Shown here piece by piece: positions 1,883 through 21,083 of a stretch of 64,000 nucleotides of DNA. The notes under the pieces are model-generated. The model did no database searches. It was not told the origin of the DNA and saw nothing but the letters and a program-made list of their open reading frames with translations. The translations under genes and the position numbers were made by a program. This stretch comes from Advenella sp. S44. GTDB lineage: Bacteria; Pseudomonadota; Gammaproteobacteria; Burkholderiales; Burkholderiaceae_B. Positions within the stretch are counted from its first letter, which is position 1; every line of letters starts with the position of its first letter. The stretch lies in the NCBI RefSeq assembly GCF_002810445.1, contig NZ_NEXS01000001.1, positions 186,001-250,000 on the forward strand, in the 5' to 3' direction.

Positions 1883-1893
1883 TGGTAAGACCA
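1883..1893. promoter_or_regulatory. Predicted FadR/GntR operator
   Basis: TGGTAAGACCA is a perfect palindrome around a 3-nt centre and matches the general TGGTNNNACCA pattern of FadR-subfamily sites. It lies in the 142-bp gap between the sugar kinase stop and the GntR start, upstream of the GntR-hydrolase unit. Binding by the adjacent regulator is inferred. Confidence 0.5.
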
Positions 1894-1938
1894 CTGAATG
1901 CCATGCCGCAACTGTAGGAAACCCTAAGTTGGGTTACT

Positions 1939-2880: not shown

Positions 2881-2990
2881 ATCTTTACTCTCCAGTCATT
2901 ATCTGTGTTTTCTGATTCTGTACGTGCCCGTGCAGCAGTTGTTGCCGGGCGATATCAAAACGCTTGTTAGTCCAAGGGCAGGCACGCGAT

Positions 2991-3623: not shown

Positions 3624-4509
3624 GTATTTTCCTTATTCCGTTCAAAATGGCCGTATCGGCATCCTGGGTGGTAAACGCAATACCGGCCAGGTGCAGGGCG
3701 CGGTCATAGCGCGTAAAGAGCGAACCGCTGCCCACTAGCGTGACTGGCGTATCGGCCGAGACCGAAAAACGCTGGCGCATATCGCGCACTTCAGAGCCGA
3801 TCAGCAGCCCCGAGAGGTAATCATCAACCTGCTGGGCAGCCAGATGACCCAAAATATACCGCGCCCTGACGGTAAACAGCTCGCTCATGGTGTCGCTGGC
3901 GGCAAGTCCTGCCATCACGCCGCGATCAAAGGACTCGGGGTGTGGTTCGGTCGCCGGCAGGCCGCGGCCCAGCAGCGAATGATGGCGCAGTACGTCGAAC
4001 AGCTCCCCGGTCATGACCGTCGTAAAGCTGTGGATGACATCGTGGTGGACGCGCGCCCATTTGCTGTGCGTGCCAGGCAGTATAAACAGGGCAGATGCCG
4101 TCTCTTGCAGTGCGCCCAGCAACTGGGTTTCCTCGCCTCGCATTACATCGGCGCCATCCGGGCCGGGCACGCACACCCCCGGAATAATACCAGCCTGGGC
4201 AGGCCAGCCTGGATCGACCGACGTCAGGCTTGTGCCCAGCGTATTGAGCGATACCGGGCAGGGCAGATAGTTTGCCTGTTGCCAACCGACATTGCTGCCC
4301 GCCATGCCGGCAATGTAGATGCGTGAAATATCGGCCTGCACGATCTGCATTTGTTGCAGCAGGTCTTGCAGCACAGCGGGAAACGACTGGTTCTGCATCC
4401 GTGTAATGCCAAAAGGCGATACCGCACTTTTGACGGCAACGCCGTCTTCAACCAGCCACAATCGCAGATTGGTTGAACCCCAGTCTGCGGCAAGATAACG
4501 CGAAACCAT
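3604..4509 (-). CDS. dgoK: 2-dehydro-3-deoxygalactonokinase
   Basis: A 301-residue DgoK-family kinase, ASKHA fold. The start chosen at 4509 gives MVSRYLAADWGSTNLRLWL, with the phosphate-1 motif ADWGSTN at residues 8-14, and has a strong ribosome site (AGGAGAAG) just upstream. An upstream in-frame start at 4572 would add 21 unlike residues. The enzyme phosphorylates 2-keto-3-deoxygalactonate to the substrate of the overlapping DgoA aldolase. The galactonate dehydratase that would feed this pathway is not in the window. Confidence 0.85.
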   Translation of the reverse strand: MVSRYLAADWGSTNLRLWLVEDGVAVKSAVSPFGITRMQNQSFPAVLQDLLQQMQIVQADISRIYIAGMAGSNVGWQQANYLPCPVSLNTLGTSLTSVDPGWPAQAGIIPGVCVPGPDGADVMRGEETQLLGALQETASALFILPGTHSKWARVHHDVIHSFTTVMTGELFDVLRHHSLLGRGLPATEPHPESFDRGVMAGLAASDTMSELFTVRARYILGHLAAQQVDDYLSGLLIGSEVRDMRQRFSVSADTPVTLVGSGSLFTRYDRALHLAGIAFTTQDADTAILNGIRKIHESLDT

Positions 4510-4720
4510 GTTGTCTTCTTCTCCTGTTATAGCGCCCACGCATGCCGTGTTCGGTCCGACGCCTGCGGCCATTCAACGGCACAGGCGCCATGCAGTGGCG
4601 GCGATCAGCTTATCACAAATGAACAGACAACCCGACTGCGCAATACCTTTGTTTCATTACCGCAGCCACTGCGCCGGATCTTTTCGAGCTGCTCGTCAAT
4701 CACGTTCGTCATTAGTCGGT

Positions 4721-6145
4721 CTACGCCGACCAGCTGACGATTTTGCCCGGATTGAAGATATTGTCGGGGTCATAGGCATGCTTGATGCTGCGCATCAGTT
4801 GCAGGGCGACTTCGCCATGTTCTGCTTTCAGAAAACCCATCTTGTGGATGCCCACGCCGTGCTCTCCGGTGCAGGTGCCGTCCATTTGTATGGCGCGCTG
4901 CACCAGGCGGTTGTTGATCTCTTCTGCCTGATGCCATTCCTGTTCATCATCGGCATCAATCATCATGACCACATGGAAATTGCCATCGCCGACATGGCCG
5001 ACAATAGACCAGGGAAAGGCGACGCTTTGCAGATCGGTCGCGGTGTCGGTAACGCAATCGGCCAGGCGCGAAATGGGCACGCACACATCTGTGGTGATGG
5101 CGCGTCCACCAGGCCGTTGCTGCAGGCAGGCGAAATAGTAATTGTGGCGGGCCGTCCACAGCACGGTGCGCTGCTCGGGTTTTTCAGCCCACTGGAATGC
5201 CGTGCCCCCCTGCCCGGCGGTCAGTTCCTGCACGATCACGGCCTGTTCCGCAATGCCGGCGGGAGATCCGTGAAATTCGAATAGCAGCAGCGGCTGTTCG
5301 GCCAGCGCGGTTTTGCTGTAGGCATTGACAGCGCGCACGGCACGCTCATCCATGAACTCGACACGGGCAATGGGCACCCCGCTTTGCATAATGTCGGTCA
5401 CGGCCTGCACAGCATGGCGCAACGTCGGGAACGAACACACCGCGGCAGTCACCGCCTCGGGCAGCGGATACACACGCAGGGTGATCTCCACAATCACGCC
5501 CAGCGTGCCTTCGCTGCCCACATATAAATGCGTCAGATCATAGCCGGCCGATGATTTGCGAGCACGGCTGCTGGTACGGATGACTTCGCCAGTTGCCGTG
5601 ACCACTTTGAGCGACAGAACATTGTCGCGCATGGTCCCGTAGCGGACCGCGTTGGTCCCGGAAGCGCGGGTCGCCGTCATGCCGCCAATAGATGCGTGCG
5701 CGCCCGGGTCAATGGGAAAGAACAAACCAGTATGGCGAATCTCATCATTTAACTGTGTGCGAATGACTCCCGGCTGCACGGTTACGGTGAAATCTTCCGG
5801 CTGGACGGCCAGCACCTGATTCATGTCGCGAAAATCGATCGTGATGCCGCCTTCAATGGGTAGCACATGGCCTTCTATGGATGAACCAATGCCAAATGGA
5901 ATAAGCGGCACATTGTGTTCGGTGCACAGCTGGACCGCCGCGATCACATCGTCCGTGTCTTTGGGAAAGAGCACGGCGTCTGGCGGTACCGGTGGATAAG
6001 CCGATTCATCACGAGCGTGATGTTCGCGCACGGCATGGGTTGTGGTGAAGCGCTCGCCGAAACGAGCAGTAAACGCCGCCACGGCGGCCTCGGAAAATTC
6101 TCTGCGAGGCATGCCGGAAGCGGGAGTGGCGGGAGTGTATGCCAT
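4721..6145 (-). CDS. FAD-linked oxidase, GlcD / D-lactate dehydrogenase type
   Basis: A 474-residue member of the FAD_binding_4 plus FAD-oxidase_C family. The PCMH-type FAD domain shows PFGIGSSIEGH and GGMTATRASGTNAVRYGTM. The C-terminal domain has GHVGDGNFH (383-391), GEHGVG (427-432) and NPGKI (465-469), all typical of D-lactate dehydrogenases (cytochrome type) and glycolate oxidase GlcD. It oxidises a D-2-hydroxyacid and passes electrons to the chain. The substrate is not fixed by sequence. A second, different family member follows downstream, so the two may act on different acids. Transcription probably continues from the 455-residue oxidase gene after an A-rich 143-bp gap. Confidence 0.82.
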   Translation of the reverse strand: MAYTPATPASGMPRREFSEAAVAAFTARFGERFTTTHAVREHHARDESAYPPVPPDAVLFPKDTDDVIAAVQLCTEHNVPLIPFGIGSSIEGHVLPIEGGITIDFRDMNQVLAVQPEDFTVTVQPGVIRTQLNDEIRHTGLFFPIDPGAHASIGGMTATRASGTNAVRYGTMRDNVLSLKVVTATGEVIRTSSRARKSSAGYDLTHLYVGSEGTLGVIVEITLRVYPLPEAVTAAVCSFPTLRHAVQAVTDIMQSGVPIARVEFMDERAVRAVNAYSKTALAEQPLLLFEFHGSPAGIAEQAVIVQELTAGQGGTAFQWAEKPEQRTVLWTARHNYYFACLQQRPGGRAITTDVCVPISRLADCVTDTATDLQSVAFPWSIVGHVGDGNFHVVMMIDADDEQEWHQAEEINNRLVQRAIQMDGTCTGEHGVGIHKMGFLKAEHGEVALQLMRSIKHAYDPDNIFNPGKIVSWSA

Positions 6146-6288
6146 GAGTGTGCGACCTTATAAAACGGCAATAAAAAAGGCAAAAATAAACGAGATTAAA
6201 AACCGGAAGAAACAAGGCAATAAAAAATGGGATAAAAGCAGGATAACAACGGGATTAAAAAGGGCAATAGCAATGTCGATGAATAATA
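6146..6288. other. A-rich spacer with short direct repeats
   Basis: The gap between the two FAD oxidase genes is strongly A-rich on the plus strand. It carries the near-repeat GGCAATAAAAAA twice (about 6168 and 6216) plus several GGATAAAA/GGATTAAAA variants. No coding sequence or terminator is evident. Confidence 0.4.
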
Positions 6289-7656
6289 TCAGTCAAGGAT
6301 GCGTGCCGCGTTCAGTACCCCTTGCGGATTGAGTGCCTCACGGATGCGGCGCATCACCTGCTGCTGGGTATCATCACGACTGTAATGAAGAAATGGTTTC
6401 TTCAGTCGGCCGATACCATGCTCGGCCGAAATGCTGCCATTGAACCTGCCGGTAAGTGCGTACACCGCCTCTTCTACCGGAACAATGTCGTCCGGATGCA
6501 GATGGCCGGTCGTCAAGTGCAAATTCCCATCGCCAAGATGACCAAAAAGCAGGTTGGAGGCCTGTGGCCAGCGCTGGCTGATCTGGGCCATGGCCTGTTC
6601 TATGAAGGTGCCCATATCCTTTAGCGGAATGCCTATATCGAAGGCCACGAATGGCCGCAGCGACGTGAATAGTTCTCCGATGCCATCACGAATCGCCCAC
6701 AGATCTGCAGCGTGGTCCAGGCTTTGCGGCACGATGGCATCCTGGACGGCGCCGTTTTCAAGCATGGATTCCAGAAAAGCATCGAAACCGGCATGGAACA
6801 TGGGCGTATCGGCGCCTTCGGTTTCGAGCAGCACGGTCAGTGGCCATGCGCCATCAAAGGGAAGAGCCCTGCCAGTAACCCTCGCAGCCTGGGCCACATA
6901 GTCGGCCCACATCACTTCAAAACTGGACAACTCCGGCAGCGCGCTGCGCGCCGCTTTCAGCAAGGGCGCGATCTGCGCGAACGAAGCCAGTCCGACCAGC
7001 GCCGAGCGCCGTGCCTGCGGACGCGGGAACAGGCGCACAACCACACGCGTGATAATGCCCAGCGTGCCCTCGGTGCCGATAAAAAGCTGCTTCAAATCCA
7101 GGCCGGTATTGTTTTTGAGAGTACGATCCAGCATTGTCATGATGGTGCCATCGGGCAGCACGACCTCCAGACCCAGCACCAGTTGCCGGGTGGTGCCGTA
7201 ACGCAGGACCCGGTTGCCACCGGCATTGGTCGCCACGTTGCCCCCGAGCTGACAGGAGCCGCGCGCGCCAAGGTCCAGCGGAAAATACCAGCCTTTTTCT
7301 TCCACCGCAGCACACAGGGTCTCCAGCACAACGCCGGCCTGCACCAGCGCGGTACCACCCGCTTCATCGATATCTTCAATCTGGTTCAGCAGTTCGAGCG
7401 AAATGACCACATCGCCTTCATCAGGCGCTGCCCCGCCGGCCAGCCCGCTGCCGCCACCCGCGATGGTGATTTTCCGGTTATGCCTGGCGCACAGCCCAAC
7501 CAGCGCAGCCACCTGCTCGACCGTCGCAGGGCGGGCCACCAGTTGCGGGGCACCTGCCTGCAGACCACTGGCGTCACTGCCGTATCGGGCAAGCGAGGCC
7601 GGGTCCGTCAAAACGTTCAGTTCTGGCGGCAATTGGGAAGTAAAGGGGTCTGACAT
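6289..7656 (-). CDS. FAD-binding oxidase, D-2-hydroxyacid dehydrogenase type
   Basis: A 455-residue FAD_binding_4/FAD-oxidase_C protein. It shows ITIAGGGSGLAGGA in the FAD domain, GSCQLGGNVATNAGG, IGTEGTLGIITRV, and near the C terminus GHLGDGNLH and SAEHGIG. The pattern is closest to D-2-hydroxyglutarate dehydrogenase and related GlcD paralogues. It is only distantly similar to the oxidase gene that follows it. The ATG at 7656 lacks a good ribosome site, and a palindrome (ACGATCGT) sits 8 nt upstream of it. That suggests a regulator may block translation initiation or the nearby promoter. Confidence 0.8.
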   Translation of the reverse strand: MSDPFTSQLPPELNVLTDPASLARYGSDASGLQAGAPQLVARPATVEQVAALVGLCARHNRKITIAGGGSGLAGGAAPDEGDVVISLELLNQIEDIDEAGGTALVQAGVVLETLCAAVEEKGWYFPLDLGARGSCQLGGNVATNAGGNRVLRYGTTRQLVLGLEVVLPDGTIMTMLDRTLKNNTGLDLKQLFIGTEGTLGIITRVVVRLFPRPQARRSALVGLASFAQIAPLLKAARSALPELSSFEVMWADYVAQAARVTGRALPFDGAWPLTVLLETEGADTPMFHAGFDAFLESMLENGAVQDAIVPQSLDHAADLWAIRDGIGELFTSLRPFVAFDIGIPLKDMGTFIEQAMAQISQRWPQASNLLFGHLGDGNLHLTTGHLHPDDIVPVEEAVYALTGRFNGSISAEHGIGRLKKPFLHYSRDDTQQQVMRRIREALNPQGVLNAARILD

Positions 7657-7823: not shown

Positions 7824-8915
7824 TTAGCGCGGCCAGTTGCTCAACGATGTCCGCGGCGGATTCACCGCCCCTTTTTCGGATAGTTCCGGGTGCACCACAT
7901 CACCATCGCGAACAATCTCCACGCCATCCAGGGTGAGGCTGCAGCCGCGCATCGGAATGTCCATATGGCATGCCGTATCGTTATCTCCGCCCAGTTCCAC
8001 ATTTGGGCCCAGCGAAAATAGGACGTTGCCGTAAAATGACAAGGCGTTCATGACGTGCTCTTGATGCAAATGGCGCGTCGCTTCAAAGTGGTACCAGCGC
8101 GCCGCATCGTTCAAGCCCCAGCCAATATGCGAAATGGCGTAAGCGCGGTTGTCATCGAACCCGGCCATGTAGGTGCGCAGCAGGTCTGCATCCATGCCGC
8201 TCCCCTCAATCTTCGTGACTGAGCCACGCTCTACCGTCAGGACGACATCGCTTTGCAGGTAACGCTTGAACGCTGTCAGGATATCGCCTGCTCGTAAAAC
8301 GACGGTGCCGTTGACCGCGCCATCGGTGGCCTGGGTGAACACGAAACCGGAAGGAAAATTGTCCCAACGGCCGGGCTCGTCTGTAAATCCATATTCAGAC
8401 ATGACGGGATATTGGCCCAATTCATATGTGATATCGGTACCGTAGCGGGACGTAATGTGCATGTGACGGGCGGGGATCAGGATTTCACGGGCACGTTCGA
8501 CTCGTTTGGCCAATTCGGGAGTCGGGAACATGGCGCGCAATACATGAGGCGGTTCCATGATGCGCAGCACCCGCACGCCTGCCTTTTGCATCTCAAGCTG
8601 TTCACGCGAAAAAAGCAGGCCCACCAGGTCAATGACCATATCGCAGCGCTTGAGCATATCCAGAAGCAAATCGTGGCCCGTGAACGGGTGGCGCCCCTGC
8701 ACGCCAGTCTGTAGTGACTGGTCGCGCTGAACATTCACATTGAACGCCTGTGCGCCCAGGCGATGCGCTGCTTTCAATAGGGCCTGTACATAGTCGGTCC
8801 ATTCTGTTCCGGCGTTCAAGACGGCAATCCGTTCGCCCTCTTGCACCTTGCATAGCCGCAACTCTTCCAGAAACAACTCAACGAGGTCGAAATCCACTGC
8901 TGATGATGTCGTCAT
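7824..8915 (-). CDS. nicX: 2,5-dihydroxypyridine 5,6-dioxygenase
   Basis: A 363-residue Fe(II)-dependent ring-cleavage enzyme that opens 2,5-dihydroxypyridine to N-formylmaleamate. The family resembles leucine aminopeptidases rather than ordinary extradiol dioxygenases. The iron ligands known in Pseudomonas putida NicX (His265, His318, Asp320) correspond to H263 in ISHIGWGLN and H317/D319 in CHMDIP. Other shared stretches are GQYPVMSEYG and DEPGRWDNFPSGF. The start at 8915 is chosen because it overlaps the nicD stop as ATGA; an upstream in-frame start at 8966 would add 17 unlike residues. It is the last gene of the pyridine operon. Confidence 0.93.
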   Translation of the reverse strand: MTTSSAVDFDLVELFLEELRLCKVQEGERIAVLNAGTEWTDYVQALLKAAHRLGAQAFNVNVQRDQSLQTGVQGRHPFTGHDLLLDMLKRCDMVIDLVGLLFSREQLEMQKAGVRVLRIMEPPHVLRAMFPTPELAKRVERAREILIPARHMHITSRYGTDITYELGQYPVMSEYGFTDEPGRWDNFPSGFVFTQATDGAVNGTVVLRAGDILTAFKRYLQSDVVLTVERGSVTKIEGSGMDADLLRTYMAGFDDNRAYAISHIGWGLNDAARWYHFEATRHLHQEHVMNALSFYGNVLFSLGPNVELGGDNDTACHMDIPMRGCSLTLDGVEIVRDGDVVHPELSEKGAVNPPRTSLSNWPR

Positions 8916-9733
8916 ATTGTCTTTTGCGCTCCATATTGTAGAGCCTGTCTTAGTATCGACAGACATAGATCCGTATTTTCCGCCTGCAATTGGTGAGCGG
9001 CGCCTTCGGCCCGCAGCACCTTAAGGCTTGGGTGACTCTGCTGAAACCGGGCCACTTCGTCGCTGTTGATCACACCGCTGGCCATTGCTACGACCAGCGT
9101 GACGGGACAGTTGGTCGCCGCCACGTCCTGATAGATATCCTGTTCGTGAAAATCGCGATAAGCCACATCAATGACCCGCGGATCGCAAACCGCCATCCAC
9201 TGCGCGCGCTGGCGGCGCAGCGGTTCAGGCCACGGTGCGATCCCGGCCTGCTGCAAATACGCGTCGGCTTCACCCCGGCGGGCCGATTCGACCATTGCGT
9301 GGGTGCGTTCGCTGCCGATAGGATAGGGCCGGGTACCGGGCGCGCAGGCAGGAGGATCCAGCATCACCAGTTGCCCGATCCGGTGCGAACGCGCCGCCAG
9401 TCTTGCGCCAATGCGAGCGCCCATCGAATGGCCCACGACGATCGGCTCGTTCAGATCCATTGCGATCAGGAAAGCCTCCAGATCGTGTGCACATGCATCT
9501 AGCCCATAGTCCAGATGCGGCCCTTGCTCACTTAATCCGCGTCCCCTGACATCCAGGATCCAGACATCATAACCATCCTGCGCTATTGGTTCGGCAATGT
9601 GGCTCCATAACGCCGCAGGACTGACGATACCCGGCACAATCACCACCGGTCCCTTGGCTCCGACATAATGAAGGTAATGCTGCCGGATACTGTTGATCCG
9701 GACGTGTCCGCCGTCCTGGCGAGGTTCTGTCAT
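8912..9733 (-). CDS. nicD: N-formylmaleamate deformylase
   Basis: A 273-residue alpha/beta hydrolase that removes formate from N-formylmaleamate to give maleamate. The catalytic triad can be placed at S103 (GHSMGA), D126 (MLDPPA) and H247 (GAAH), against Ser101, Asp125 and His245 of P. putida NicD. The segments IRQHYLHY, VPGIVSPA and LDVRGRGLSEQGPHLDYG are also NicD-like. The start at 9733 has a ribosome site (GGAG, 8 nt before ATG). Starting at 9835 would add 34 unlike residues. It is coupled by ATGA to nicX and stands 149 bp after nicF. Confidence 0.92.
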   Translation of the reverse strand: MTEPRQDGGHVRINSIRQHYLHYVGAKGPVVIVPGIVSPAALWSHIAEPIAQDGYDVWILDVRGRGLSEQGPHLDYGLDACAHDLEAFLIAMDLNEPIVVGHSMGARIGARLAARSHRIGQLVMLDPPACAPGTRPYPIGSERTHAMVESARRGEADAYLQQAGIAPWPEPLRRQRAQWMAVCDPRVIDVAYRDFHEQDIYQDVAATNCPVTLVVAMASGVINSDEVARFQQSHPSLKVLRAEGAAHQLQAENTDLCLSILRQALQYGAQKTI

Positions 9734-9882
9734 GATGTCACTCCGTGAATGATACTCATCAAAAGGCATGCCACTGCGGCACCAAGAACATCTTGCGCTG
9801 ACCGGACGCGATGCCGCATCTGAAAGATGCTCCATCGTGTGCGGACCCGTCTCGAAAAGGCGCTAACATCTTGTGCCGGGAC

Positions 9883-10665
9883 TTATTCAGCAGGGAATGG
9901 ACCCTTTTGTACTGAAGTGAGCGGTATGAGGTTGATGACCTCTTCGGTGGACATGACGTCAGCATATTTGCTGTGCATATCAAACAAGTTGACGGCATGA
10001 GAGGTCTGAGACCGGTCAAAGACGGCATCATGCGGCACAATCACGTGGTAACCATAAGATGAGGCGTCCACGGTGGAGGCACGCACACAGCCACTGGTTG
10101 TCGTGCCTGTCACGACAACACAATTGACATCGAACGTGGTTAGATAGCTAACCAGGGGTGTTCCAAAAAATGCGCTGGCGTGATGTTTCGGTAACAGTAT
10201 ATCGCCTGCACCAGGTGCGCATTCCTTTACCATTTCGTAGCCTTTGGGCGGAATAGACATGATTGCAGGGGCTTTTTCTGCGAAGCGCTGTCCATCATGA
10301 TTTTTTTTGTAGGCCACATGGGGGAAAACTACCGGAAACCCACGAGCGCGAAAAGCATCGATCAGCCGAGAGATGTATGGGACTGCTCTCCAGCCATATT
10401 CACCGCAACTGGTCGGATATTCACGCTTGATGGATTCCAGGATCGGCAGGCGCGCATGTCCTACGGAACGGTATTGGACGTCAATGACCAGTAAAGCGGG
10501 CCGAATCTCGCCTTCGAACGGCTTGCCGAACCCCGCTGTTCGGTAAATTTCCTGCTCCTCCGGAGTGATAACGTGTTGCCACGGCGACGCTGAACGGTCC
10601 GGACCCCCGCTTTCTTCTTCGCGCAGATATATCTCTGGCGTCGAATCGATATTTGATGCTTTCAT
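9883..10665 (-). CDS. nicF: Maleamate amidohydrolase (isochorismatase family)
   Basis: A 260-residue cysteine hydrolase that converts maleamate to maleate and ammonia. The triad is visible as D62 (LLVIDVQ), K160 (LLPKHHASAFFGT) and C193 (TTTSGCVRAS). The protein has about 50 extra N-terminal residues before the fold begins, a little longer than usual. The ATG at 10665 follows AAGGAAGG; the frame is also open from a TTG at 10689. The gene sits between the monooxygenase and nicD in the order expected for 2,5-dihydroxypyridine catabolism. Confidence 0.88.
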   Translation of the reverse strand: MKASNIDSTPEIYLREEESGGPDRSASPWQHVITPEEQEIYRTAGFGKPFEGEIRPALLVIDVQYRSVGHARLPILESIKREYPTSCGEYGWRAVPYISRLIDAFRARGFPVVFPHVAYKKNHDGQRFAEKAPAIMSIPPKGYEMVKECAPGAGDILLPKHHASAFFGTPLVSYLTTFDVNCVVVTGTTTSGCVRASTVDASSYGYHVIVPHDAVFDRSQTSHAVNLFDMHSKYADVMSTEEVINLIPLTSVQKGPFPAE

Positions 10666-10685
10666 TTCCTTCCTTTCACTTTCAT

Positions 10686-11885
10686 TCAAACGCCGACGGT
10701 CAGCGCGTTGTAACTTACGATCCAGTCGTAGCGCTCTCGGACTTTTTCTTTACTCCACTGTTTTTCGATATAGCTGCGCGCCCTTTGCTCTTTGCCGAGG
10801 TCGGCATGGTGAAAGACGCGAAGCATATCCATAGAAGCGCGGGCCACCTTGTATCCGCGTTCCCGACGTAAGGCATCATATTGCTGCAGGGCAGATTCAA
10901 TGCCTTGGTCTCCAGTAAGTACATTAACCAGGACGCAACTATCCTCGAATGCCAGATTCACGCCTTGGCCCAGGTACGGCACCATGGAGTGACAAGCATC
11001 CCCTGCCAGCGCCACATGACCGCGCGCCCAGGTGGGCAATTCGTCGCGCACAAACAAGCCCCATTTGTAGAGCACGTCGGCGCCACTGATCATTTCTATG
11101 ACCTGTTCATGCCAGCCCTCGAAATCGCCTAAGCATGCTTCAAGTTCTCCAGGCTCTGACCAAGATTCCTGTTCCCATTGCTGACTATCCACCTGGCCGG
11201 AGAAACTGATAAATTGCCTGCCGTCATGCTGCACCGGGTAACTGGTGATGTGCGCCGTCGGGCCGACCCAAGTAGTCGCCATCGGGGTACGGTATTTTTC
11301 CGAAATGCGTTCGATCGGTACCAGTCCGCGCCAGGCGATAGCGTTCGTAAAGTTCTGCCGCACTTCACCAAACATCTGTTGACGCACTTTTGAGTGCACG
11401 CCGTCTGCACCGATCAGGACATCGGCTTTGACCGACGGTTTGCCCTCAAAATGCACCGTGACCCCGTCATTAGTCTCGTCATACCCAATACATTTGTGAT
11501 CCAGATGAATGCATCCTGGCTGCGCTTTCTCCAGCGCGCTCAGCAGAATACGATGCAACTCATAGCGCAGCACCATGTACAAGGTATGTTCCTTGCTGTT
11601 TTCAGCGCCTTTGTTATACACGGACCAAGCCTGGGCGGTATTCCACAGGCGTACCACCCGGTCAATGGGCGGCAGATTGATTTTCTCAAGATCTGGCCCC
11701 AGACCTAGATCGTTCAGGACCCGAGCGCCATTGATGGAAATCCACAAGCCTGCGCCTAATTCTCGATGAGCAGGAGCCTGCTCGTACACAGCTACCTGCA
11801 CCCCCTTGCGGGCCAGGCCCAGCGCCGTCGCCAATCCCCCCATTCCGGCGCCGGAAATCACCACTTTCTTTTCTGCATTTGCCAT
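10686..11885 (-). CDS. FAD-dependent aromatic-ring monooxygenase, NicC/HpaM-like
   Basis: A 399-residue single-component flavin hydroxylase. It shows the Rossmann motif GAGMGG (12-17), LIGADG (157-162) and the second FAD motif GDACHSM (295-301). In this operon it should convert a hydroxypyridine carboxylate to 2,5-dihydroxypyridine by decarboxylative hydroxylation, as NicC does on 6-hydroxynicotinate and HpaM on 5-hydroxypicolinate. From memory of P. putida NicC, its active-site His47 (GAGIH) is replaced here by W48 (GAGLW). NicC Cys202 also appears to be absent, while H212 may match His211. So the substrate may not be 6-hydroxynicotinate. The start at 11885 has AGGA upstream; an ATG at 11894 is less likely. 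Confidence 0.82.
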   Translation of the reverse strand: MANAEKKVVISGAGMGGLATALGLARKGVQVAVYEQAPAHRELGAGLWISINGARVLNDLGLGPDLEKINLPPIDRVVRLWNTAQAWSVYNKGAENSKEHTLYMVLRYELHRILLSALEKAQPGCIHLDHKCIGYDETNDGVTVHFEGKPSVKADVLIGADGVHSKVRQQMFGEVRQNFTNAIAWRGLVPIERISEKYRTPMATTWVGPTAHITSYPVQHDGRQFISFSGQVDSQQWEQESWSEPGELEACLGDFEGWHEQVIEMISGADVLYKWGLFVRDELPTWARGHVALAGDACHSMVPYLGQGVNLAFEDSCVLVNVLTGDQGIESALQQYDALRRERGYKVARASMDMLRVFHHADLGKEQRARSYIEKQWSKEKVRERYDWIVSYNALTVGV

Positions 11886-11920
11886 TTTGTTCATCCTATA
11901 TATCCACTTTCCATCACAAA

Positions 11921-12412
11921 TTAAGAATTTTCATTCAGTGTGCGCGCCGTATCCTGTACGGCCTCGATAATCTTCTGGTATCCCGTACAACGACAAATAT
12001 TTCCATGCAGATAATGCTTGATTTGCTCTACCGTAGGTGCAGAATGACGCGTCAGCAGGGCGCGGATCGCCACAATCATTCCTGGCGTACAGAAGCCGCA
12101 TTGCAAGGCACCATGCTTGACGAAAGCCGTCTGGATTGCGGACATCACCTCATCGTTCTTCGCCGATTCAATTGTCTGCACCGAAGCGCCTTCACATTCC
12201 ATGGCGAGCGTGCTGCAACTGGATACAGGCTTGCCATCCACCAAGACAGTGCAGGCGCCACAAACTTCTGCGTCACAGGACCGTTTGGTTCCCGTCAGGC
12301 CGAACTCATTGCGCAGAACGTCGATCAACAAATCTCGATGCGAAATTGTGGCGTTTTTACACTCGCCATTTACGACAATTGAAATATCCGACAACTGAGT
12401 ATTCACATTCAT
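11921..12412 (-). CDS. Molybdenum hydroxylase small subunit, two [2Fe-2S] clusters
   Basis: A 163-residue iron-sulfur subunit of the xanthine oxidase/CO dehydrogenase family. The plant-type ferredoxin cluster is bound by C46, C51, C54 (CDAEVCGAC) and C66. The second cluster is bound by C105, C108 (CGFCTPGM), C140 and C142 (NICRCTGY). It passes electrons from the molybdenum cofactor to the FAD subunit encoded just upstream. The start at 12412 overlaps the FAD subunit stop by ATGA and follows GGAG, so it is preferred over a start at 12421. Confidence 0.92.
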   Translation of the reverse strand: MNVNTQLSDISIVVNGECKNATISHRDLLIDVLRNEFGLTGTKRSCDAEVCGACTVLVDGKPVSSCSTLAMECEGASVQTIESAKNDEVMSAIQTAFVKHGALQCGFCTPGMIVAIRALLTRHSAPTVEQIKHYLHGNICRCTGYQKIIEAVQDTARTLNENS

Positions 12413-13257
12413 TTCACACACTCCATCGCACTGCGCACGGCCAGCACCGCGACCAGATGCTTCCGATAAGACTCGGAGCCGTACACTCCTTCGAGCACAT
12501 CCAGTCCGGCCATGTCTCGCGCCGCAGCCTGCATGACATCGAACTCACTCACCGCATCGCGTTCATTCAGGACAGCACAAACATTGTTGAGTCGCTCGGG
12601 CAGGCCAGTAATCGACCCGGCCCACGACTCCCACACAGGCGTTCCATCGACTAGATTACGTACACATGCAACGCCCGCCGAAGGCCGATTCAGGTACACG
12701 ACTTTCCGATAGGCGCAACGGCACTCCTCCGCTCCCAGGGGAACGACAATTTCCGTCATAAATTCAGCCTCTTCTCGTACGGTCGAATAAGGACCATCAA
12801 AAAATTCGCGCACTGGAACGTCGCGTTTACCCTGCCGTCCAATGAGGACAACGCGCGCGTTCAGAGCCGCCAATAGGGCAGGAGGATCCGCATTCGGTTC
12901 AGCAAAGCACAGATTTCCAGCCAGCGTGCCGGCACTGCGCACGCGAATATTGGCAATGTTGTGACTCAAATCGGCATAACCGGAAAGGACCCTTTTTACG
13001 ATCTCCGAATCTGCGATTTCCTGATGAGTCACCAGCGCGCCAATATGCAATGAACCGTCCTGCATCTGGATTTGATTGAGACGCGGAATTTTTTTCAGAT
13101 TGAGGACATGGCCGGCCTCGATCACCCGTTCCTTCATGCCGATGATCGCCTCTGTGCCGCCCGCGTAAAAGATGAAATCATCGTCGAAATCACTGGCCAG
13201 TTTCAATGCATCCTCTATGCTCTGTGGACTATGGAACTCAAACCGTCTTGGCTTCAT
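12409..13257 (-). CDS. Molybdenum hydroxylase medium subunit, FAD-binding (CoxM-like)
   Basis: A 282-residue FAD subunit. The two flavin-binding motifs of the CoxM/CutM family are present as AGGTE (32-36) and TLAGNLC (111-117), followed by the CO dehydrogenase flavoprotein C-terminal domain. A separate FAD subunit shows that electrons leave through flavin, unlike classical nicotinate dehydrogenase NicAB, which uses c-type cytochrome domains in its large subunit. Its 5' end overlaps the CoxG-like gene by 20 bp and its 3' end overlaps the small subunit by 4 bp. Confidence 0.9.
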   Translation of the reverse strand: MKPRRFEFHSPQSIEDALKLASDFDDDFIFYAGGTEAIIGMKERVIEAGHVLNLKKIPRLNQIQMQDGSLHIGALVTHQEIADSEIVKRVLSGYADLSHNIANIRVRSAGTLAGNLCFAEPNADPPALLAALNARVVLIGRQGKRDVPVREFFDGPYSTVREEAEFMTEIVVPLGAEECRCAYRKVVYLNRPSAGVACVRNLVDGTPVWESWAGSITGLPERLNNVCAVLNERDAVSEFDVMQAAARDMAGLDVLEGVYGSESYRKHLVAVLAVRSAMECVK

Positions 13258-13705
13258 CTATTTGCTCCAGCTCCTCATGTAAATTCACATCGAACTCGCG
13301 AAATATATCCGCGCATTTTTTCTTGACGACGGGATAACCCAACGTCGCAAGTTTTCCAGATATCTGGATATCCGCATCAATGTCGATAGTGACCAACTCC
13401 TCTTCTTGTCCAAGCATAAGGATCAGCTTGACCGAAACGCCGGTCGCAGTCTTCTTGTCCTTGCCGGAAGCGGTAATGCCAACCCGCTCATTCTCGACAT
13501 ATTCGTCCACGACAATCTCGCATGGCATTTCGAACTTGAAAGGTCCCACTTTTTGTCTGATCAGGGCCGTATAGTCTTTCAAGGGTTCGCGCTCTTCTAC
13601 ATCGCTGCAACCCGGTATCAATCCGGCGATTCGCGTCACGTCGAACAATAAGGCCCACAATGCCTCCCTGCTCGTGTCGACGCTCGTTTTTGTTTCAAAT
13701 TTCAT
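13238..13705 (-). CDS. CoxG-like SRPBCC protein
   Basis: A 155-residue protein of the CO dehydrogenase subunit G family (START/SRPBCC fold). It begins MKFETKTSVDTSREALWALL and continues with LIPGCSDVEE, a conserved CoxG signature. In CO oxidisers CoxG helps attach the enzyme to the membrane. Here it lies between the large and medium subunit genes with essentially no spacing, so it may anchor or mature this hydroxylase. It lacks the usual hydrophobic C-terminal anchor, ending about 15 residues after the SRPBCC core. The family is clear; the role is inferred. Confidence 0.85.
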   Translation of the reverse strand: MKFETKTSVDTSREALWALLFDVTRIAGLIPGCSDVEEREPLKDYTALIRQKVGPFKFEMPCEIVVDEYVENERVGITASGKDKKTATGVSVKLILMLGQEEELVTIDIDADIQISGKLATLGYPVVKKKCADIFREFDVNLHEELEQIDEAKTV

Positions 13706-13706
13706 T

Positions 13707-15980
13707 TCAATCTTCCTTTTGTAAGTGAATAGCGCGCCAGACTTTTTCTGGAGTCAGAGGTAAAGATCGTATGCGTACGCCATATTTTGTCCGGATTGCG
13801 TTAGCCACTGCAGGCGCGATAGGTAGAATCGAGCCTTCTCCCATTCCCCTGGAGCCAAAAGGACCAGGGCCGTCTTCGTTTTCAATGAAATGGGTATGCA
13901 TATTAGGCGCCTGCTCGATCGTGGGCACCTTGTAATCAAAGGCAGAGCCGTTGATTATCTGGCCGTCTTCGTATACATATTGTTCAGTTAACGTATGGCC
14001 AAGCCCCATCATCGCCGCGCCTTCGTCCTGACCTTCTGCGCTTTTCATATTCAGGACTTTACCGACATCGGCACAGAGCGTCAGATTATCAACTGTGATT
14101 TGGCCGGTATCTTCATCAACCGAAATTTCGCACACGCCCGCCGCCGTCTCCCAGAACAAGGGGGCCTGTTTCAAGGTACCGTTCTTGCTGTATGGCGTGA
14201 CACGGCCAATGGCCGAGAACTCGCCAGCAGTCAGCCCCTGGAAGCGGCGCAATAACTCCTTGAACGAAAGAAATTCCTTTGCGATTTGCACGCCGCCTTC
14301 AACGATCTGCACATCTTGGAGCTCTACACCCATCGCAAGGCTGCCCGCCTCCTGTAACTGCTCGCGGATTTGCCGCGTGGCGTCTTCGATCGCCAGTCCA
14401 ATAATGACAGTGGAACGACTCGCGCCGGTGCCCCAGTCATAGGGCGCCGATTGCGTGTCCGGTTCCAGTACCGTTACATTTTCCAGCGGCTGGTTCAGGT
14501 TACGCGCCGCGATGAGCCGCTGCACGCCGCGGGCGCCCTGGCCGATCTCTGCAGTAGTGGCTGCAACAGTGATATGTCCATCGGCCGATAGCCGCACAAT
14601 GGCTCCCCCAACGGGAAGGATGCCTGGGTCGGTTGCAGCAACTGCTACGCCGCGCAGCTTTGCCCCGTCGCTGGAATCGCTCATCGATTCCATCAGCGCG
14701 AGCGCATGCTTCAGTTCGTCACCTACGTCGACGTCGATGGGGCGCAGATCGGCCTTGATGACGCCATGTCGGGGCGCAAGATTGTGCCGGCGAAACTCAA
14801 TGGGATCCATTCCGATGGCATGTGCCATATCGTCAATTTGAGATTCACATGCCCAGACTGCCTGAGGTCCGCCGATTGAACGGAACGATGCTGCCGGCAC
14901 AGTATTTGTATAGACCGCACGAGAACGCAGGCGCAGGTTTTCGAAGACATACGGCCCGATCGCACGAATCGCCGCCTTGGTCGAGATGGCGGGGCCCGTA
15001 TCAGCATAAGCGCCACAGTTGGCCACGACGTCAATACTGCGCGCAGTCAACTTCCCATTGTGGTCCACTGCGGTTTTGATCGTAATCACCGTGTCGACGC
15101 GACGACAGGTTTGCATGGACTCCATGAGGCTTAACTGCAATTTGACCGGACGCTTGACGAATCGGGACAGTGCGGCGGCCAGCGGATCCAGCTTTACCGA
15201 TGCCTTGCCTCCAAAACCCCCGCCAACATACGGCGTATGCACACGCACCTTGGTAATGGGCAGGCCGAATACTTCCGAGCAGACTCGCTGGATAGCTGTC
15301 GGCGTCTGTCCGTTGCTCCAGAGTTCAAGTCCCTGATCGTGATAATTGGCAATAACGGCGTGCGGCTCCATGGCATAGTGATAAATACCAGGAAAAACGT
15401 AATCGTCTTCTAGCACTCTGCTGGCATTCTCAAATGCTTCATCGACCTTGCCCTGCTCATAGTCATACAAGTGGCAAATATTGGTGCCTTCGACCGGTTT
15501 GGGTCCACCACGAAAATAGAAGTCGTTCAGAACGTCGAAGTTTTCATGGACCAGCGGCGCATCGGCTTCTAGGGCCGCCTTGCCTTCCGTCACAAAGGGC
15601 AGCACCTCGTAGTCGATGTCGATAAGCTCAATCGCATCTTCCGCAATGGCCTCGGACTCAGCAATGACTACGGCCACGGGTTCGCCTGCATAACGGGCGA
15701 TTTCGGTGGCAATAACAGGACGGTCGTTGAAATACAGGCCCCAATGGATCGTCGCACATAGTTGCGGCGTCAGATCCTGACCGCTGAATACGCCCAACAC
15801 GCCAGTAAGGGCTTTGGCTTGGCCGCACTCAATGGAGAGAATCCGCGCATGTGGATGAGGACTCCTGATGATTCGGGCGTAGGCCATATCAGGCAAAACC
15901 ATGTCGGTTACATAGCGCGCTTCGCCCGATACTTTTTCCATGTAGTCGGGGCGAGTTTCAGTTCTGTTTTGTGCCTTCAT
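13707..15980 (-). CDS. Molybdenum hydroxylase large subunit, molybdopterin-binding
   Basis: A 757-residue catalytic subunit of the xanthine oxidase family. It has the aldehyde-oxidase a/b hammerhead domain at the N terminus (KVSGEARYVTDM), the GGFGGKASVKLDP molybdopterin motif (about 240) and the catalytic glutamate E715 in GMGEG near the C terminus. It should hydroxylate a pyridine ring next to nitrogen using water. Unlike NicB it has no fused cytochrome c domains. The start at 15980 has GGAA upstream; an ATG at 15998 has no ribosome site. The gene follows the Bug receptor directly in the operon. The precise substrate (nicotinate, picolinate, quinolinate or similar) is unresolved. Confidence 0.9.
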   Translation of the reverse strand: MKAQNRTETRPDYMEKVSGEARYVTDMVLPDMAYARIIRSPHPHARILSIECGQAKALTGVLGVFSGQDLTPQLCATIHWGLYFNDRPVIATEIARYAGEPVAVVIAESEAIAEDAIELIDIDYEVLPFVTEGKAALEADAPLVHENFDVLNDFYFRGGPKPVEGTNICHLYDYEQGKVDEAFENASRVLEDDYVFPGIYHYAMEPHAVIANYHDQGLELWSNGQTPTAIQRVCSEVFGLPITKVRVHTPYVGGGFGGKASVKLDPLAAALSRFVKRPVKLQLSLMESMQTCRRVDTVITIKTAVDHNGKLTARSIDVVANCGAYADTGPAISTKAAIRAIGPYVFENLRLRSRAVYTNTVPAASFRSIGGPQAVWACESQIDDMAHAIGMDPIEFRRHNLAPRHGVIKADLRPIDVDVGDELKHALALMESMSDSSDGAKLRGVAVAATDPGILPVGGAIVRLSADGHITVAATTAEIGQGARGVQRLIAARNLNQPLENVTVLEPDTQSAPYDWGTGASRSTVIIGLAIEDATRQIREQLQEAGSLAMGVELQDVQIVEGGVQIAKEFLSFKELLRRFQGLTAGEFSAIGRVTPYSKNGTLKQAPLFWETAAGVCEISVDEDTGQITVDNLTLCADVGKVLNMKSAEGQDEGAAMMGLGHTLTEQYVYEDGQIINGSAFDYKVPTIEQAPNMHTHFIENEDGPGPFGSRGMGEGSILPIAPAVANAIRTKYGVRIRSLPLTPEKVWRAIHLQKED

Positions 15981-16003
15981 TTGGGTTCCAACTTGCATAG
16001 CAT

Positions 16004-16987
16004 TTAATTAATTGTGATTCCGCCAGCCTTGATCACGGCCAACCACTTCGCGGTATCGGCTATCTCCAGTGCTTTCAGTTGTGCAACACTCTCATGCATG
16101 GGCACAGCGCCTTGCGCTCGCAACTTGGCGATGATCTCTGGATCTTTCAGCATCACGCCGACCTGTTTGTTCAGTTTTTCGATCACGGGTTCTGGCGTGC
16201 CCTTAGGCGCATAGATAGCGAACCAGGTATTGGCTTCAAAGCCAGGCAATGCACCCTCATCCAGCGTGGGTACGTCGGGCAGTTCTTCAGTCCGTTTTTT
16301 TGTTGTCGCAGCAAGCGCACGCAACTTGCCGTCTCGAATATGACTGAGCACTGCCGGACCCTGCTCTATGACCATGTCGATACGTCCGGCCAACAGATCC
16401 ACCACCATTCCGCCACTGCCCTTGTATGGGACGTGAAGAATATCAAGTTTGGCCTCTTGTTTGAACAACTCCGGGAAAACGTGCTGCGATGTACCGGGCC
16501 CTGCCGAACCATAGGTGTATTTTCCAGGCGCTTCGCGGATCATCTTGATCAGATCATCAATTGTTTTAGCCGGACTTGATGCAGGCACGACTACATAAGA
16601 AGGCAGGTTGGCCAGCGTAGAAACAGGCGTTAACCGCTCTTGCGCTTTATGCATGTTGTCTAGCAACGAGGGCAGGATAGTATGCAGCGATACCGCTCCG
16701 ACTAACAGTGTATGACCGTCGGGCGCCGCGCGTGCCACATTGTCGGCCCCTATCACTCCCGAGGCGCCCGGTTTGTTTTCCACTACAACGCTCTCGCCCC
16801 AAGTCTTCTGCAGGTTATAAGCAACTAATCGGGCGAACATATCCGTTGCCCCGCCGGGCGGATAGGGAGCTACTATTTTAATGAGTTTGTCTGGGTACGC
16901 CTCCACTGATTCGGCATGCGCCGGCAAACCCAAAAGCGCAGTACAGGTCGTAGCCAGCCAGATCAAGGCTATTTTCAAAGTCCGCAT
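16004..16987 (-). CDS. Bug family tripartite tricarboxylate receptor
   Basis: A 327-residue periplasmic solute-binding protein of the Bug/TctC family. It has a signal peptide ending at AHA (about 25), then PDKLIKIVAPYPPGGATD, the hallmark of the family, and GPGTSQHVF near the middle. No TctA/TctB membrane genes lie nearby, so it is an orphan receptor of the sort that is abundant in Bordetella-type genomes. As first gene of the pyridine operon it probably captures or senses the pyridine carboxylate. A ribosome site (AGGAGA) precedes the ATG. Confidence 0.9.
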   Translation of the reverse strand: MRTLKIALIWLATTCTALLGLPAHAESVEAYPDKLIKIVAPYPPGGATDMFARLVAYNLQKTWGESVVVENKPGASGVIGADNVARAAPDGHTLLVGAVSLHTILPSLLDNMHKAQERLTPVSTLANLPSYVVVPASSPAKTIDDLIKMIREAPGKYTYGSAGPGTSQHVFPELFKQEAKLDILHVPYKGSGGMVVDLLAGRIDMVIEQGPAVLSHIRDGKLRALAATTKKRTEELPDVPTLDEGALPGFEANTWFAIYAPKGTPEPVIEKLNKQVGVMLKDPEIIAKLRAQGAVPMHESVAQLKALEIADTAKWLAVIKAGGITIN

Positions 16988-17097
16988 TATCTCTCCTAAA
17001 TTTTTTATCTAAAATTCTGCTTGACAGAATGCACTTACGTCTAATAGAATTTATAACACGATATGAACCTAATTCAAAACTAGGGTATTTACCAACT
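16988..17097. promoter_or_regulatory. Divergent control region of the pyridine operon and IclR gene
   Basis: This 110-bp gap separates two divergent units. It holds a perfect inverted repeat, ATTCTG-N5-CAGAAT (17014-17030). On the plus strand a consensus -35, TTGACA (17021-17026), lies inside the repeat. A -10-like TAGAAT (17045-17050) follows at an 18-bp spacing and would drive the IclR gene. A regulator on the repeat would cover that -35 and also reach the start region of the catabolic operon on the other strand. Binding by the adjacent IclR protein is inferred. Confidence 0.6.
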
Positions 17098-17787
17098 ATG
17101 AATAAAAGCGAACCTGTATCGGCCGTTGAACGCGCACTGGCAATCCTTAACGCTTTCAGGCCCGATGAGCCTTATGTCTCCCTGCATGAACTGTCACTCC
17201 GCACCGGGCTATACAAAAGCACCTTATTGCGGCAACTGGTCACACTAACCCAGTATCATTGCGTCACTCGTCTGGATAACGGACAGTATCAACTGGGCGC
17301 CCGAGTGCTCAATTGGGCGCATGTCTACACGACTTCCCTGAACCTGGACCAGCATGTTCCTCCGGCGCTGGACCGACTGGTTTCCATCACAGGTGAAGGC
17401 GCGTCATTCTTCACCCAGGATGGTGACTTGCGCGTTTGCCTGTACCGCGCAGACTCGAACAAAGGCATTCGTGATCATGTCAGGCAAGGCGAACTGTTGC
17501 CGCTGGACAAGGGCGCGGCCGGGCGCATTTTGCTTGACTACAGGAAATCGTTGGATCAGATGCCCGCCCCCAAGGTGTTGTTTTCCATTGGCGAACGTGA
17601 GGAAGAAATCGCGGCGCTGGCGGCCCCTGTTTTCACCAAAGATGGCCTGAAGGGAGCATTGGCGATCTCCGGCCCGGCTACCCGTTTTCTTGAAGAGAAC
17701 GTTGCGCAGTGGAAACCTGTATTGCTGGAGGCCGCTCAAAGCCTGAGCCATACGCTCGGCGGTGGCCATTTTTTTACGTCGCGGTGA
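17098..17787 (+). CDS. IclR family transcriptional regulator
   Basis: A 229-residue regulator. The N-terminal winged helix includes VSAVERALAILNAF and LSLRTGLYKSTLLRQLVTL, followed by the IclR effector-binding domain with DKGAAGRILL and LAISGPATRF. It is divergent from the pyridine operon and shares its control region, so it is probably the pathway regulator, responding to a pyridine or a pathway acid. Nicotinate clusters of Pseudomonas use a MarR-type regulator instead. The ATG at 17098 starts the conserved sequence; an upstream ATG at 17029 lies inside the promoter palindrome and is unlikely. Confidence 0.87.
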   Translation: MNKSEPVSAVERALAILNAFRPDEPYVSLHELSLRTGLYKSTLLRQLVTLTQYHCVTRLDNGQYQLGARVLNWAHVYTTSLNLDQHVPPALDRLVSITGEGASFFTQDGDLRVCLYRADSNKGIRDHVRQGELLPLDKGAAGRILLDYRKSLDQMPAPKVLFSIGEREEEIAALAAPVFTKDGLKGALAISGPATRFLEENVAQWKPVLLEAAQSLSHTLGGGHFFTSR

Positions 17788-19646: not shown

Positions 19647-20453
19647 TTATTCTCCTTCTGTCGCAGTTGCTGCAGCTGGCGCAGCAGCATCGCCGGCTTT
19701 GCGGCCGCTGCTGCGACCACGACCGCCTGGACGACGCTGTCCATCAGGACGGTCACCGCGAGGACGACGTGGACGACGCTCATCTTCACGAGGAGCAGCA
19801 GCCACTTCAGCTGGCATTTCGCCGTTAGGCAGCAGATCGCCTTTGTAAACCCAGACTTTGATACCAATGATACCGTAGGTAGTCTGTGCTTCAGAGGTGC
19901 CGTAGTCGATGATGGCGCGCAGTGTATGCAGAGGCACACGACCTTCACGATACCATTCGGTACGCGCAATTTCGATACCATTCAGACGGCCGGCGGACAT
20001 GATCTTGATACCCTGCGCACCCAGGCGCATGGCGTTCTGCATCGCGCGTTTCATGGCGCGACGGAACATGATCCGTTTTTCCAGCTGCTGAGCGATAGAA
20101 TCAGCGATCAGCTGAGCATCGGTTTCAGGCTTGCGAATTTCTTCGATGTTAACGTGAACCGGCACGCCCATCAGGCGTTGCAGGTCTGACTTGAGGCTCT
20201 CGATATCTTCGCCGCGCTTGCCGATGACAACACCGGGACGCGCTGAATAAACAGTGATCCGTGCATTTTTTGCAGGACGCTCGATAAGGACGCGACCGAC
20301 GGATGCGTTTTTCAGTTTCCGTTTCAGGTACTCGCGAACGCGGACGTCTTCGGCCAGCATGGCGCCGTAGTCTTTATCGTCAGCGTACCAGCGTGAGCTC
20401 CAGTTACGGTTAACTGCGAGACGGAACCCGGTAGGGTGAATTTTCTGACCCAT
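19647..20453 (-). CDS. rpsC: 30S ribosomal protein S3
   Basis: A 268-residue S3 at the mRNA entry channel. It begins [18 protein letters not shown] and contains the KH domain ([15 protein letters not shown]) and the C-terminal S3 domain ([16 protein letters not shown]). After about residue 215 there is a 50-residue tail rich in Arg, Gly, Pro and Ala, ending AAATATEGE. Such tails are common in Alcaligenaceae S3 and make it longer than the 233-residue E. coli protein. Confidence 0.97.
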
Positions 20454-20462
20454 TGTGACTCC

Positions 20463-20792
20463 TTATGCGCCGACTTTGACCACAATGTGGCAAGTCTGCT
20501 TCTCGATACGGTTACCGCGGCCCTTGGCCCTTGCGGAGAATCGCTTCATTGACTGAGCTTTGTCGACATAAATCGTTGTGACTTTCAGTTCGTCAATATC
20601 GGCACCATCATTGTGCTCGGCATTCGCAATCGCGGATTCCAGGGCTTTTTTGACGATGCCAGCGGCTTTTTTAGGTGTGAATGTAAGGATATTCAACGCA
20701 TGTGCCACAGACTTGCCACGGATCATGTCCGCAACCAGACGGGTTTTTTGCGCAGAGATATGTACACCACGAATAATGGCTGTAGTTTCCAT
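20463..20792 (-). CDS. rplV: 50S ribosomal protein L22
   Basis: A 109-residue L22 that lines the exit tunnel. Seen are [19 protein letters not shown] at the start and the C-terminal hairpin sequence [20 protein letters not shown]. It is 3 bp after rpsS. No unusual insertions in the tunnel loop are visible. Confidence 0.97.
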
Positions 20793-20795
20793 CGC

Positions 20796-21071
20796 TTACC
20801 TCTTAGACTTTTTGTCTGCAGCATGGCCCTTGTACGTACGGGTATGAGCAAACTCGCCAAGCTTGTGACCAACCATATTTTCGTTCACATACACAGGCAC
20901 GTGCTGACGGCCATTGTGAACAGCAATTGTCAAGCCGATGAAATCAGGCAGGATGGTTGAACGACGCGACCAGGTTTTGATCGGTTTTTTCTCTTTCCCA
21001 TCGACGGCGGCATCCACTTTTTTCAGCAAGTGGGCGTCTACGAAAGGACCTTTTTTAATAGAACGTGACAT
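20796..21071 (-). CDS. rpsS: 30S ribosomal protein S19
   Basis: A 91-residue S19 of the 30S head, which binds 16S rRNA with S13. Recognised from [38 protein letters not shown] and [16 protein letters not shown]. It follows rplB after 12 bp. Confidence 0.97.
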
Positions 21072-21083
21072 TTAGTTCGCCCC

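Follow-up and report, generated by a model that had tools for sequence, protein, structure and literature searches.

A fourth pyridine cluster in Advenella sp. S44: a candidate pyridine-acid operon with an altered NicX-type dioxygenase

Introduction

Aerobic routes of pyridine-acid breakdown are commonly taken to pass through 2,5-dihydroxypyridine. The described gene clusters that come closest to the locus analysed here are nic of Pseudomonas putida (NicAB, NicC, NicX, NicD, NicF), pic of Alcaligenes and Bordetella (PicA, PicB, PicC, PicD-G), hpa – whose gene set we take to be HpaM, HpaX, HpaD and HpaF – and the nicotine cluster ndp on plasmid pSH1 of Sphingobium xenophagum. The locus itself is a nine-gene operon of Advenella sp. 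S44, found in a window (the whole stretch of DNA that was analysed) of 64,000 nucleotides, G000:C16:186001-250000. Its nine open reading frames (ORFs) lie on the minus strand, from position 16987 down to 7824, in the order Bug receptor, molybdenum (Mo) subunit, CoxG, flavin adenine dinucleotide (FAD) subunit, iron–sulphur (FeS) subunit, FAD-dependent monooxygenase (FMO), then NicF-, NicD- and NicX-type enzymes.

With nic, the operon shares the same five kinds of reaction and homologues of NicX, NicD and NicF that retain the catalytic residues. However, its hydroxylase has an FAD subunit and no cytochrome, its FMO is only 31% identical to P. putida NicC and falls in another clade, the substrate-side residues of its dioxygenase and hydrolase are changed, and it includes no maleate isomerase. 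With pic, it has in common a three-subunit, flavin-containing Mo enzyme and NicX/D/F-type lower genes, but a single-component FMO replaces the Rieske system, a decarboxylase is lacking, and the Mo subunit is 25% identical to that of the genome's own pic-type cluster; neither the PicC decarboxylase nor the four-component PicB is present in the window operon or was seen in its copies elsewhere. The hpa cluster shares the FMO and the NicD/X/F-type genes, yet the genome's own hpa-type cluster has no Mo enzyme and its FMO, 34% identical to the window protein, belongs to another clade. As for ndp, NdpE is 47% identical to the window dioxygenase but carries the canonical NicX signature; the 6-hydroxy-3-succinoylpyridine (HSP) monooxygenase of that cluster has no match to the window FMO, and the cluster includes a maleate isomerase.

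The operon is thus placed beside, and not within, the nic-, pic- and hpa-type clusters of the same genome: it is a fourth route, distinct from all three. On balance we favour the view that the operon by itself encodes the catabolism of a pyridine carboxylic acid. The compound handled probably differs from that of the known vitamin-B3-type pathway, because the dioxygenase and its partners differ at positions that do not vary among the known enzymes.

In the pathway that we propose, the Bug receptor would capture the pyridine acid and the three-subunit Mo enzyme would hydroxylate the ring carbon adjoining the nitrogen, giving a 2-pyridone acid. The FMO would add a second hydroxyl, placed para to the first, and a carboxylate might or might not be lost in this step; the NicX-type Fe(II) dioxygenase would then open the ring, the alpha/beta hydrolase would take the acyl group off the nitrogen and the NicF-type amidase would release ammonia. 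Expression is probably switched by a divergent IclR regulator. We infer all of this – the reactions, their order and the exclusion of nicotinate, picolinate and 5-hydroxypicolinate as the natural substrate. The sequences themselves establish which genes are present, that the set is conserved, that the catalytic residues are kept and that the operon is separate from the three other clusters.

Four pyridine clusters in one genome

The NicX-type dioxygenase has four matches in its own genome, itself included (window, C12:105016, C16:566788 and C16:626290), each in a cluster of its own. In the nic-type cluster, the neighbours of the paralogue are a NicC orthologue (81% identical), a cytochrome c protein and Mo-cofactor proteins. 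The pic-type cluster combines a PicC-like Amidohydro_2 protein (PF04909), NicD, NicF, Rieske oxygenase alpha and beta subunits, a reductase, Mo, FAD and FeS subunits, and a maleate-isomerase-like protein; the genome's one Amdase-family protein sits there. The hpa-type cluster comprises an ABC transporter, an HpaM-like FMO, NicD, NicX and NicF.

Because these separate clusters exist, nicotinate, picolinate and 5-hydroxypicolinate are unlikely to be the main substrate of the window operon in this host. An earlier sequence-only reading had listed nicotinate, picolinate, quinolinate, a hydroxypicolinate or another pyridine acid as possible starting compounds; the list can now be narrowed accordingly.

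The ring-opening dioxygenase

For P. putida NicX, the part of the published account covered here (PMC7910607) gives H265, S302, H318 and D320 as iron ligands, E177 and H189 as the residues holding N1 and O1 of the substrate, and L104 and H105 as touching it. In the same part, H105F and H105M remain active, R293A loses both iron and activity, and C76Q and C76E are inactive while C76A is active (PMC7910607). The window protein keeps the iron ligands, H280, S318, H334 and D336 corresponding to His265, Ser302, His318 and Asp320 of NicX in three alignments. Residue numbers of the window NicX-, NicD- and NicF-type proteins refer to their longest ORFs.

Around the substrate, the picture changes. In an alignment of 60 rows, from which identical sequences and pieces shorter than 250 residues had been dropped, a canonical signature (L104-[FH]105-S-P107, E177, H189, W190, R293) is found in 22 rows, 19 of them distinct below 97% identity, including NicX, NdpE and the genome's own nic-, pic- and hpa-type proteins. 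None of the 11 rows of the operon clade fits it (10 distinct genes, the window being counted twice). In NicX numbering, the operon dioxygenases have R107 in place of Pro, R121, L293 in place of Arg, F190 and Gln at position 76. Leu at the Arg293 position and Glu at the Glu177 position occur in all 11 rows, as does Gln aligned with Cys76, in a column that lies beside a gap and is unaligned in one pairwise alignment. At the His189 position the window protein has Asn (N203), and the nine orthologous genes have His. A second alignment setting returned the same letters, position 76 being the least sure. The predicted structure (mean predicted local distance difference test score, pLDDT, 77) has NicX (7cn3) as its nearest fold (E 5.4e-42), with AmpS/PepS-type aminopeptidases far behind.

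Several points qualify what can be read from these changes. The signature was chosen after the alignment had been viewed, and 23 further rows whose function was not assigned also depart from it, so that such departure is common in the superfamily. Among the 22 canonical rows, only P. putida NicX has been assayed in the literature covered. Finally, the model falls below a pLDDT of 50 at residues 82-92 and 291-309, which hold Q90 and L309.

The altered enzyme matters beyond Advenella: the operon occurs in at least 13 places, plasmids included, and a whole clade may be mislabelled by automatic annotation as '2,5-dihydroxypyridine dioxygenase'. Other plasmid-borne NicX homologues of 49-50% identity (L188, L189 and L191) stand beside 4-hydroxyphenylacetate-3-hydroxylase-type genes and have non-canonical signatures.

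The NicD- and NicF-type enzymes

The Ser-Asp-His triad of the NicD-type hydrolase (S137/D160/H281) is invariant in 17 of 17 rows, but R177-T178 in all 10 operon rows faces Trp-Tyr in all seven comparison rows, and the catalytic His is followed by H-Q-[LM]-Q-[AV]-E in all 10 operon rows against H-M-I-P-W-D in the comparison rows. One of the seven comparison rows is truncated where its stretch ends, and these positions are not established as activity-defining. Likewise, the Asp-Lys-Cys set of the NicF-type amidase (D70/K168/C201) is invariant in 21 of 21 rows. This enzyme has a clade-specific insertion, and at 20 positions the 13 operon rows agree among themselves and depart from the eight others.

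The sequence-only reading had called this a classical NicF-NicD-NicX lower pathway. The active-site residues that it quoted are indeed present – its numbering reflects slightly later starts – but the description as classical does not hold, as the substrate-side residues differ from those of the NicX/HpaX/PicD/NdpE group and of NicD.

The upper pathway

The hydroxylase has the features of a three-subunit enzyme of the xanthine oxidase family: Mo, FAD and [2Fe-2S] subunits and a Glu near the C-terminus of the Mo subunit. This residue, E721, lies in a G-x-G-E stretch, which we take to be the family motif, and is invariant in a four-row alignment. The best Protein Data Bank (PDB) match of the Mo subunit is 4-hydroxybenzoyl-CoA reductase. 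No cytochrome family is found on the Mo protein and an FAD subunit is present, which sets the enzyme apart from NicAB and agrees, in the Pfam search, with the earlier claim of three subunits with flavin and without a cytochrome domain. The design itself has a precedent, a three-subunit nicotinate hydroxylase with flavin being already known from Bacillus sp. DSM2923 in the part of the report covered (PMC10331938).

The FMO belongs to a clade of 14 rows – the window protein, those of 12 copies and that of the variant operon L067 – with support of 100/99. This clade stands apart from three NicC rows (NicC clade 100/100), three HpaM-like rows and rows from gentisate contexts; the program flags long branches where the NicC and HpaM-like rows join, and the HpaM comparison rows are FMOs from hpa-type clusters, with no named HpaM sequence among them. 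The best NCBIfam model is 3-hydroxybenzoate 6-monooxygenase (215 bits, under the cut-off of 459), and by sequence the PDB matches are tropone 2-monooxygenase (2.2e-62) and then NicC (1.3e-45). The predicted FMO structure (mean pLDDT 87) is nearest to tropone monooxygenase 8rqh; the model does not distinguish a NicC-like from a 3-hydroxybenzoate-hydroxylase-like function. Six plasmid homologues of 37-41% identity, found in gentisate-like or coenzyme A (CoA)-type clusters and, in one record, in unannotated DNA, gave no substrate from their contexts.

That the upper part differs from the NicAB/NicC set of Pseudomonas, as had been proposed, is therefore borne out by the FAD subunit, the missing cytochrome and an FMO outside the NicC clade. 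High identity of the large and medium subunits to a characterised hydroxylase with the same gene order, which would have spoken against novelty, was not found in the searched data.

Candidate substrates

Tentatively, the altered dioxygenase may cleave a dihydroxypyridine-carboxylate instead of 2,5-dihydroxypyridine. The ring could, for example, be 3,6-dihydroxypicolinate formed from quinolinate or picolinate, which may yield N-oxalyl-maleamate and then oxalate, or 2,5-dihydroxyisonicotinate, which may come from isonicotinate. Both types of dioxygenase found in operons of this kind – the window type and a non-orthologous replacement described below – have basic residues beyond those of the comparison group (Arg 107 and 121 in one, Arg 105 and Lys 123 in the other), located in or near the loop corresponding to the one that contacts the ring in NicX. 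Both also have a smaller residue for Trp190, and the NicD-type hydrolase has gained an Arg. To our knowledge, no such carboxylated-ring cleavage has been described.

Against a carboxylated ring, the new Arg residues may simply compensate for the lost Arg293, an explanation that does not extend to the second dioxygenase, which keeps Arg293. In addition, the kynurenine-formamidase-like replacement hydrolase of some sister operons points to an N-formyl rather than an N-oxalyl intermediate. Because two of the changed places fall where the dioxygenase model has low confidence, we lowered our estimate for a carboxylated ring slightly.

Somewhat less probable is a second, isofunctional nicotinate pathway, in which the Mo enzyme would form 6-hydroxynicotinate, the FMO would act as NicC to give 2,5-dihydroxypyridine, and NicX, NicD and NicF would follow. 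Each step of this scheme has its enzyme class in the operon, nicotinate hydroxylases with three subunits and flavin have been described biochemically (PMC10331938, in the part covered), and in five of the eight operon-bearing genomes a NicC match of 60% or more is lacking. The Advenella genome, however, already has a nic-type cluster, and the dioxygenase and deformylase lack residues that are conserved in the comparison group. Such a NicC match is present in the other three genomes, in one of them split between frames; the NicC homologue of Paenalcaligenes niemegkensis is divided over two reading frames at G150:C4:2035859-2036898.

We regard as doubtful an alternative picolinate route, from picolinate through 6-hydroxypicolinate to 3,6-dihydroxypicolinate, with a flavin enzyme in place of the four-component PicB. 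It gains from the nearest NCBIfam model of the FMO being 3-hydroxybenzoate 6-monooxygenase, albeit under its cut-off, as 6-hydroxypicolinate is the aza-analogue of 3-hydroxybenzoate. The same genome, though, contains a pic-type cluster, and a match to PicC is missing in six of the eight operon genomes – a point that would lose its force if the dioxygenase took the carboxylated ring directly. In the remaining two, it is the N-terminal 70 residues of the PicC-like protein that are matched; one of the eight genomes, G030, is 75% complete. An Amdase-family match occurs in seven of the eight; G061 carries the operon, and no Amdase-family match (the maleate isomerase candidate) was found in its whole genome.

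A side-chain route as in nicotine breakdown, where SpmABC and HspB/NdpD convert 3-succinoylpyridine to 2,5-dihydroxypyridine, has the same logic of a three-subunit Mo enzyme and an FMO followed by NicX/D/F-type genes, but is very improbable here and was dropped on sequence: at E<=1e-12, NdpD of the Sphingobium plasmid shows no match to the window FMO; the nicotine dehydrogenase L protein of that plasmid reaches 25% identity over 452 residues; and the neighbouring genes examined included none recognisable as a nicotine gene.

A separate operon for another pyridine acid thus remains our preferred reading, and would supply a defined enzyme set for compounds such as quinolinate or isonicotinate. 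No account in the literature covered was recognised as describing this operon; the primary papers on the pic pathway lie outside that coverage, which makes this weak evidence of novelty.

Distribution and related operons

The core of the operon (IclR, Bug, Mo, CoxG, FAD, FeS, FMO and NicF-type amidase) is found in 12 further loci, with hosts including Pusillimonas, Paenalcaligenes, Achromobacter, Bordetella and Variovorax plasmids; because the order recurs in these loci, it is not due to chance. Among 150 relatives searched with the Mo subunit at E<=1e-80, near matches of 78, 57 and 56% occur in three same-family genomes, after which identity drops to 38%; the nine congeners listed gave no match at this threshold. 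When named genome contigs were scanned with the four-row Mo alignment, 77 loci emerged, of which 10 (L050-L054, L056-L060) have the core Mo-CoxG-FAD-FeS-FMO-NicF; L050, L058 and L060 are the same contigs as the three relatives just mentioned. One more copy, L055, is interrupted by a contig end. The core also stands in two Variovorax plasmids (L127, L128); together with the 10 loci and the window itself, this makes 13 places.

In Pusillimonas, Paenalcaligenes and a Paucimonas metagenome-assembled genome (MAG), the NicD/NicX pair is swapped for another hydrolase and another NicX paralogue, in an otherwise identical operon (L033:6464-8371, L051:16133-18036, L053:16031-17919). The paralogue is 36-40% identical to the window dioxygenase, and none of the four replacement rows (three sister operons and L067) fits the canonical signature: they have R105, K123, Q177 and no Trp190, with R293 kept. 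The hydrolase is related to HSL-type lipases and kynurenine formamidase, its PDB ranking being a lipase, a putative esterase and, third, kynurenine formamidase 4e11; the same hydrolase stands at a contig end in a Lacisediminimonas MAG. The NicD/NicX pair of V. boronicumulans is separated from the core by about 13 kb. No decarboxylase was found inside the operon copies or in the flanks of eight of the 12, checked by eye on rough gene calls, and no extra enzyme recurs in those flanks besides a TctA-like gene near some.

A quick-method tree of the Mo subunit (76 rows, the window and 75 of 79 loci, shorter matches being dropped) has a clade of 32 with Shimodaira–Hasegawa-like approximate likelihood ratio test (SH-aLRT) support of 100. 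It holds 14 rows of the present operon type and 16 of a second type, the 14 including L055, although its contig stops short of the FMO; L067 and L070 belong to neither.

The second operon type, labelled by a pair of luciferase-like genes next to the Mo cassette, comprises L061-L066, L068, L069, L071-L075, L114, L118 and L124, mostly from alphaproteobacteria, with two betaproteobacterial MAGs. Flavin reductase, M24 peptidase-like and threonine-synthase-like genes are often present; within the DNA covered, flavin reductase occurs in at least 13 of the 16 loci, CofGH in eight and NADPH:F420 reductase in six. L063:4566-22105 carries CofGH, NpdG, CofE, CofD and CofC, while L064:963-14761, from a Rhodospirillaceae MAG, combines an alpha/beta hydrolase, a NicF-like amidase (33%), a UbiD decarboxylase, the Mo cassette and luciferase-like genes. 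Judged by its genes, this type looks like an F420-dependent catabolic pathway, and the Mo clade that it shares with the present operon offers a handle on a little-known role of F420 in proteobacteria.

Gene organisation and genomic neighbourhood

Pfam families are assigned to eight of the nine operon proteins and the ninth, the NicX-type protein, has no Pfam family and is placed by its PDB match, so that the families, position and order of the nine genes are as first described. Intergenic gaps range from -20 to +26 nucleotides, except for 149 before the nicD-type gene with its later start. The CoxG-type protein likely serves hydroxylase maturation or membrane anchoring. TctA and TctB are absent among the operon genes.

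Table 1. Genes of the Advenella sp. S44 operon and its divergent regulator, in window coordinates
Feature	Coordinates	Strand	Family or best match
IclR-family regulator, divergent	17029..17787	+	PF01614/PF09339; adjoins all 12 other complete core copies
Bug/TctC-type periplasmic receptor (tripartite tricarboxylate transporter)	16004..16987	-	PF03401 9.3e-69
Mo-hydroxylase large subunit (Mo-cofactor), 763 residues	13707..15998	-	PF02738, PF20256, PF01315
CoxG/SRPBCC accessory protein	13238..13705	-	PF06240 2.9e-14
Mo-hydroxylase FAD subunit, 282 residues	12409..13257	-	PF00941 5.4e-44; best PDB match CO dehydrogenase medium chain
Mo-hydroxylase [2Fe-2S] subunit	11921..12421	-	PF01799 1.1e-29
FAD-dependent class A monooxygenase (FMO)	10686..11894	-	PF01494; own clade
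NicF-type amidase, isochorismatase fold	9883..10665 (longer ORF 9883-10689)	-	PF00857 4.5e-31; PDB 4l07 1.4e-28
NicD-type alpha/beta hydrolase	8912..9733 (longer ORF 8912-9835)	-	PDB 4l0c 3.3e-48
NicX-superfamily Fe(II) ring-cleavage dioxygenase	7824..8915 (longer ORF 7824-8966)	-	PDB 7cn3 (NicX) 1.8e-79

The guanine + cytosine (GC) content of the operon bins is 0.53-0.57, against 0.57-0.62 on the left and 0.52-0.54 on the right; since the right side is similar, GC gives no clear sign of a recent arrival. Flanking genes were examined at window positions 208-7656 and 19647-21911: one flank carries ribosomal protein genes (S3, L2), and the other carries sugar-acid genes (DGOK, KDPG/KHG aldolase, PfkB, FAA hydrolase) together with two FAD-linked oxidases.

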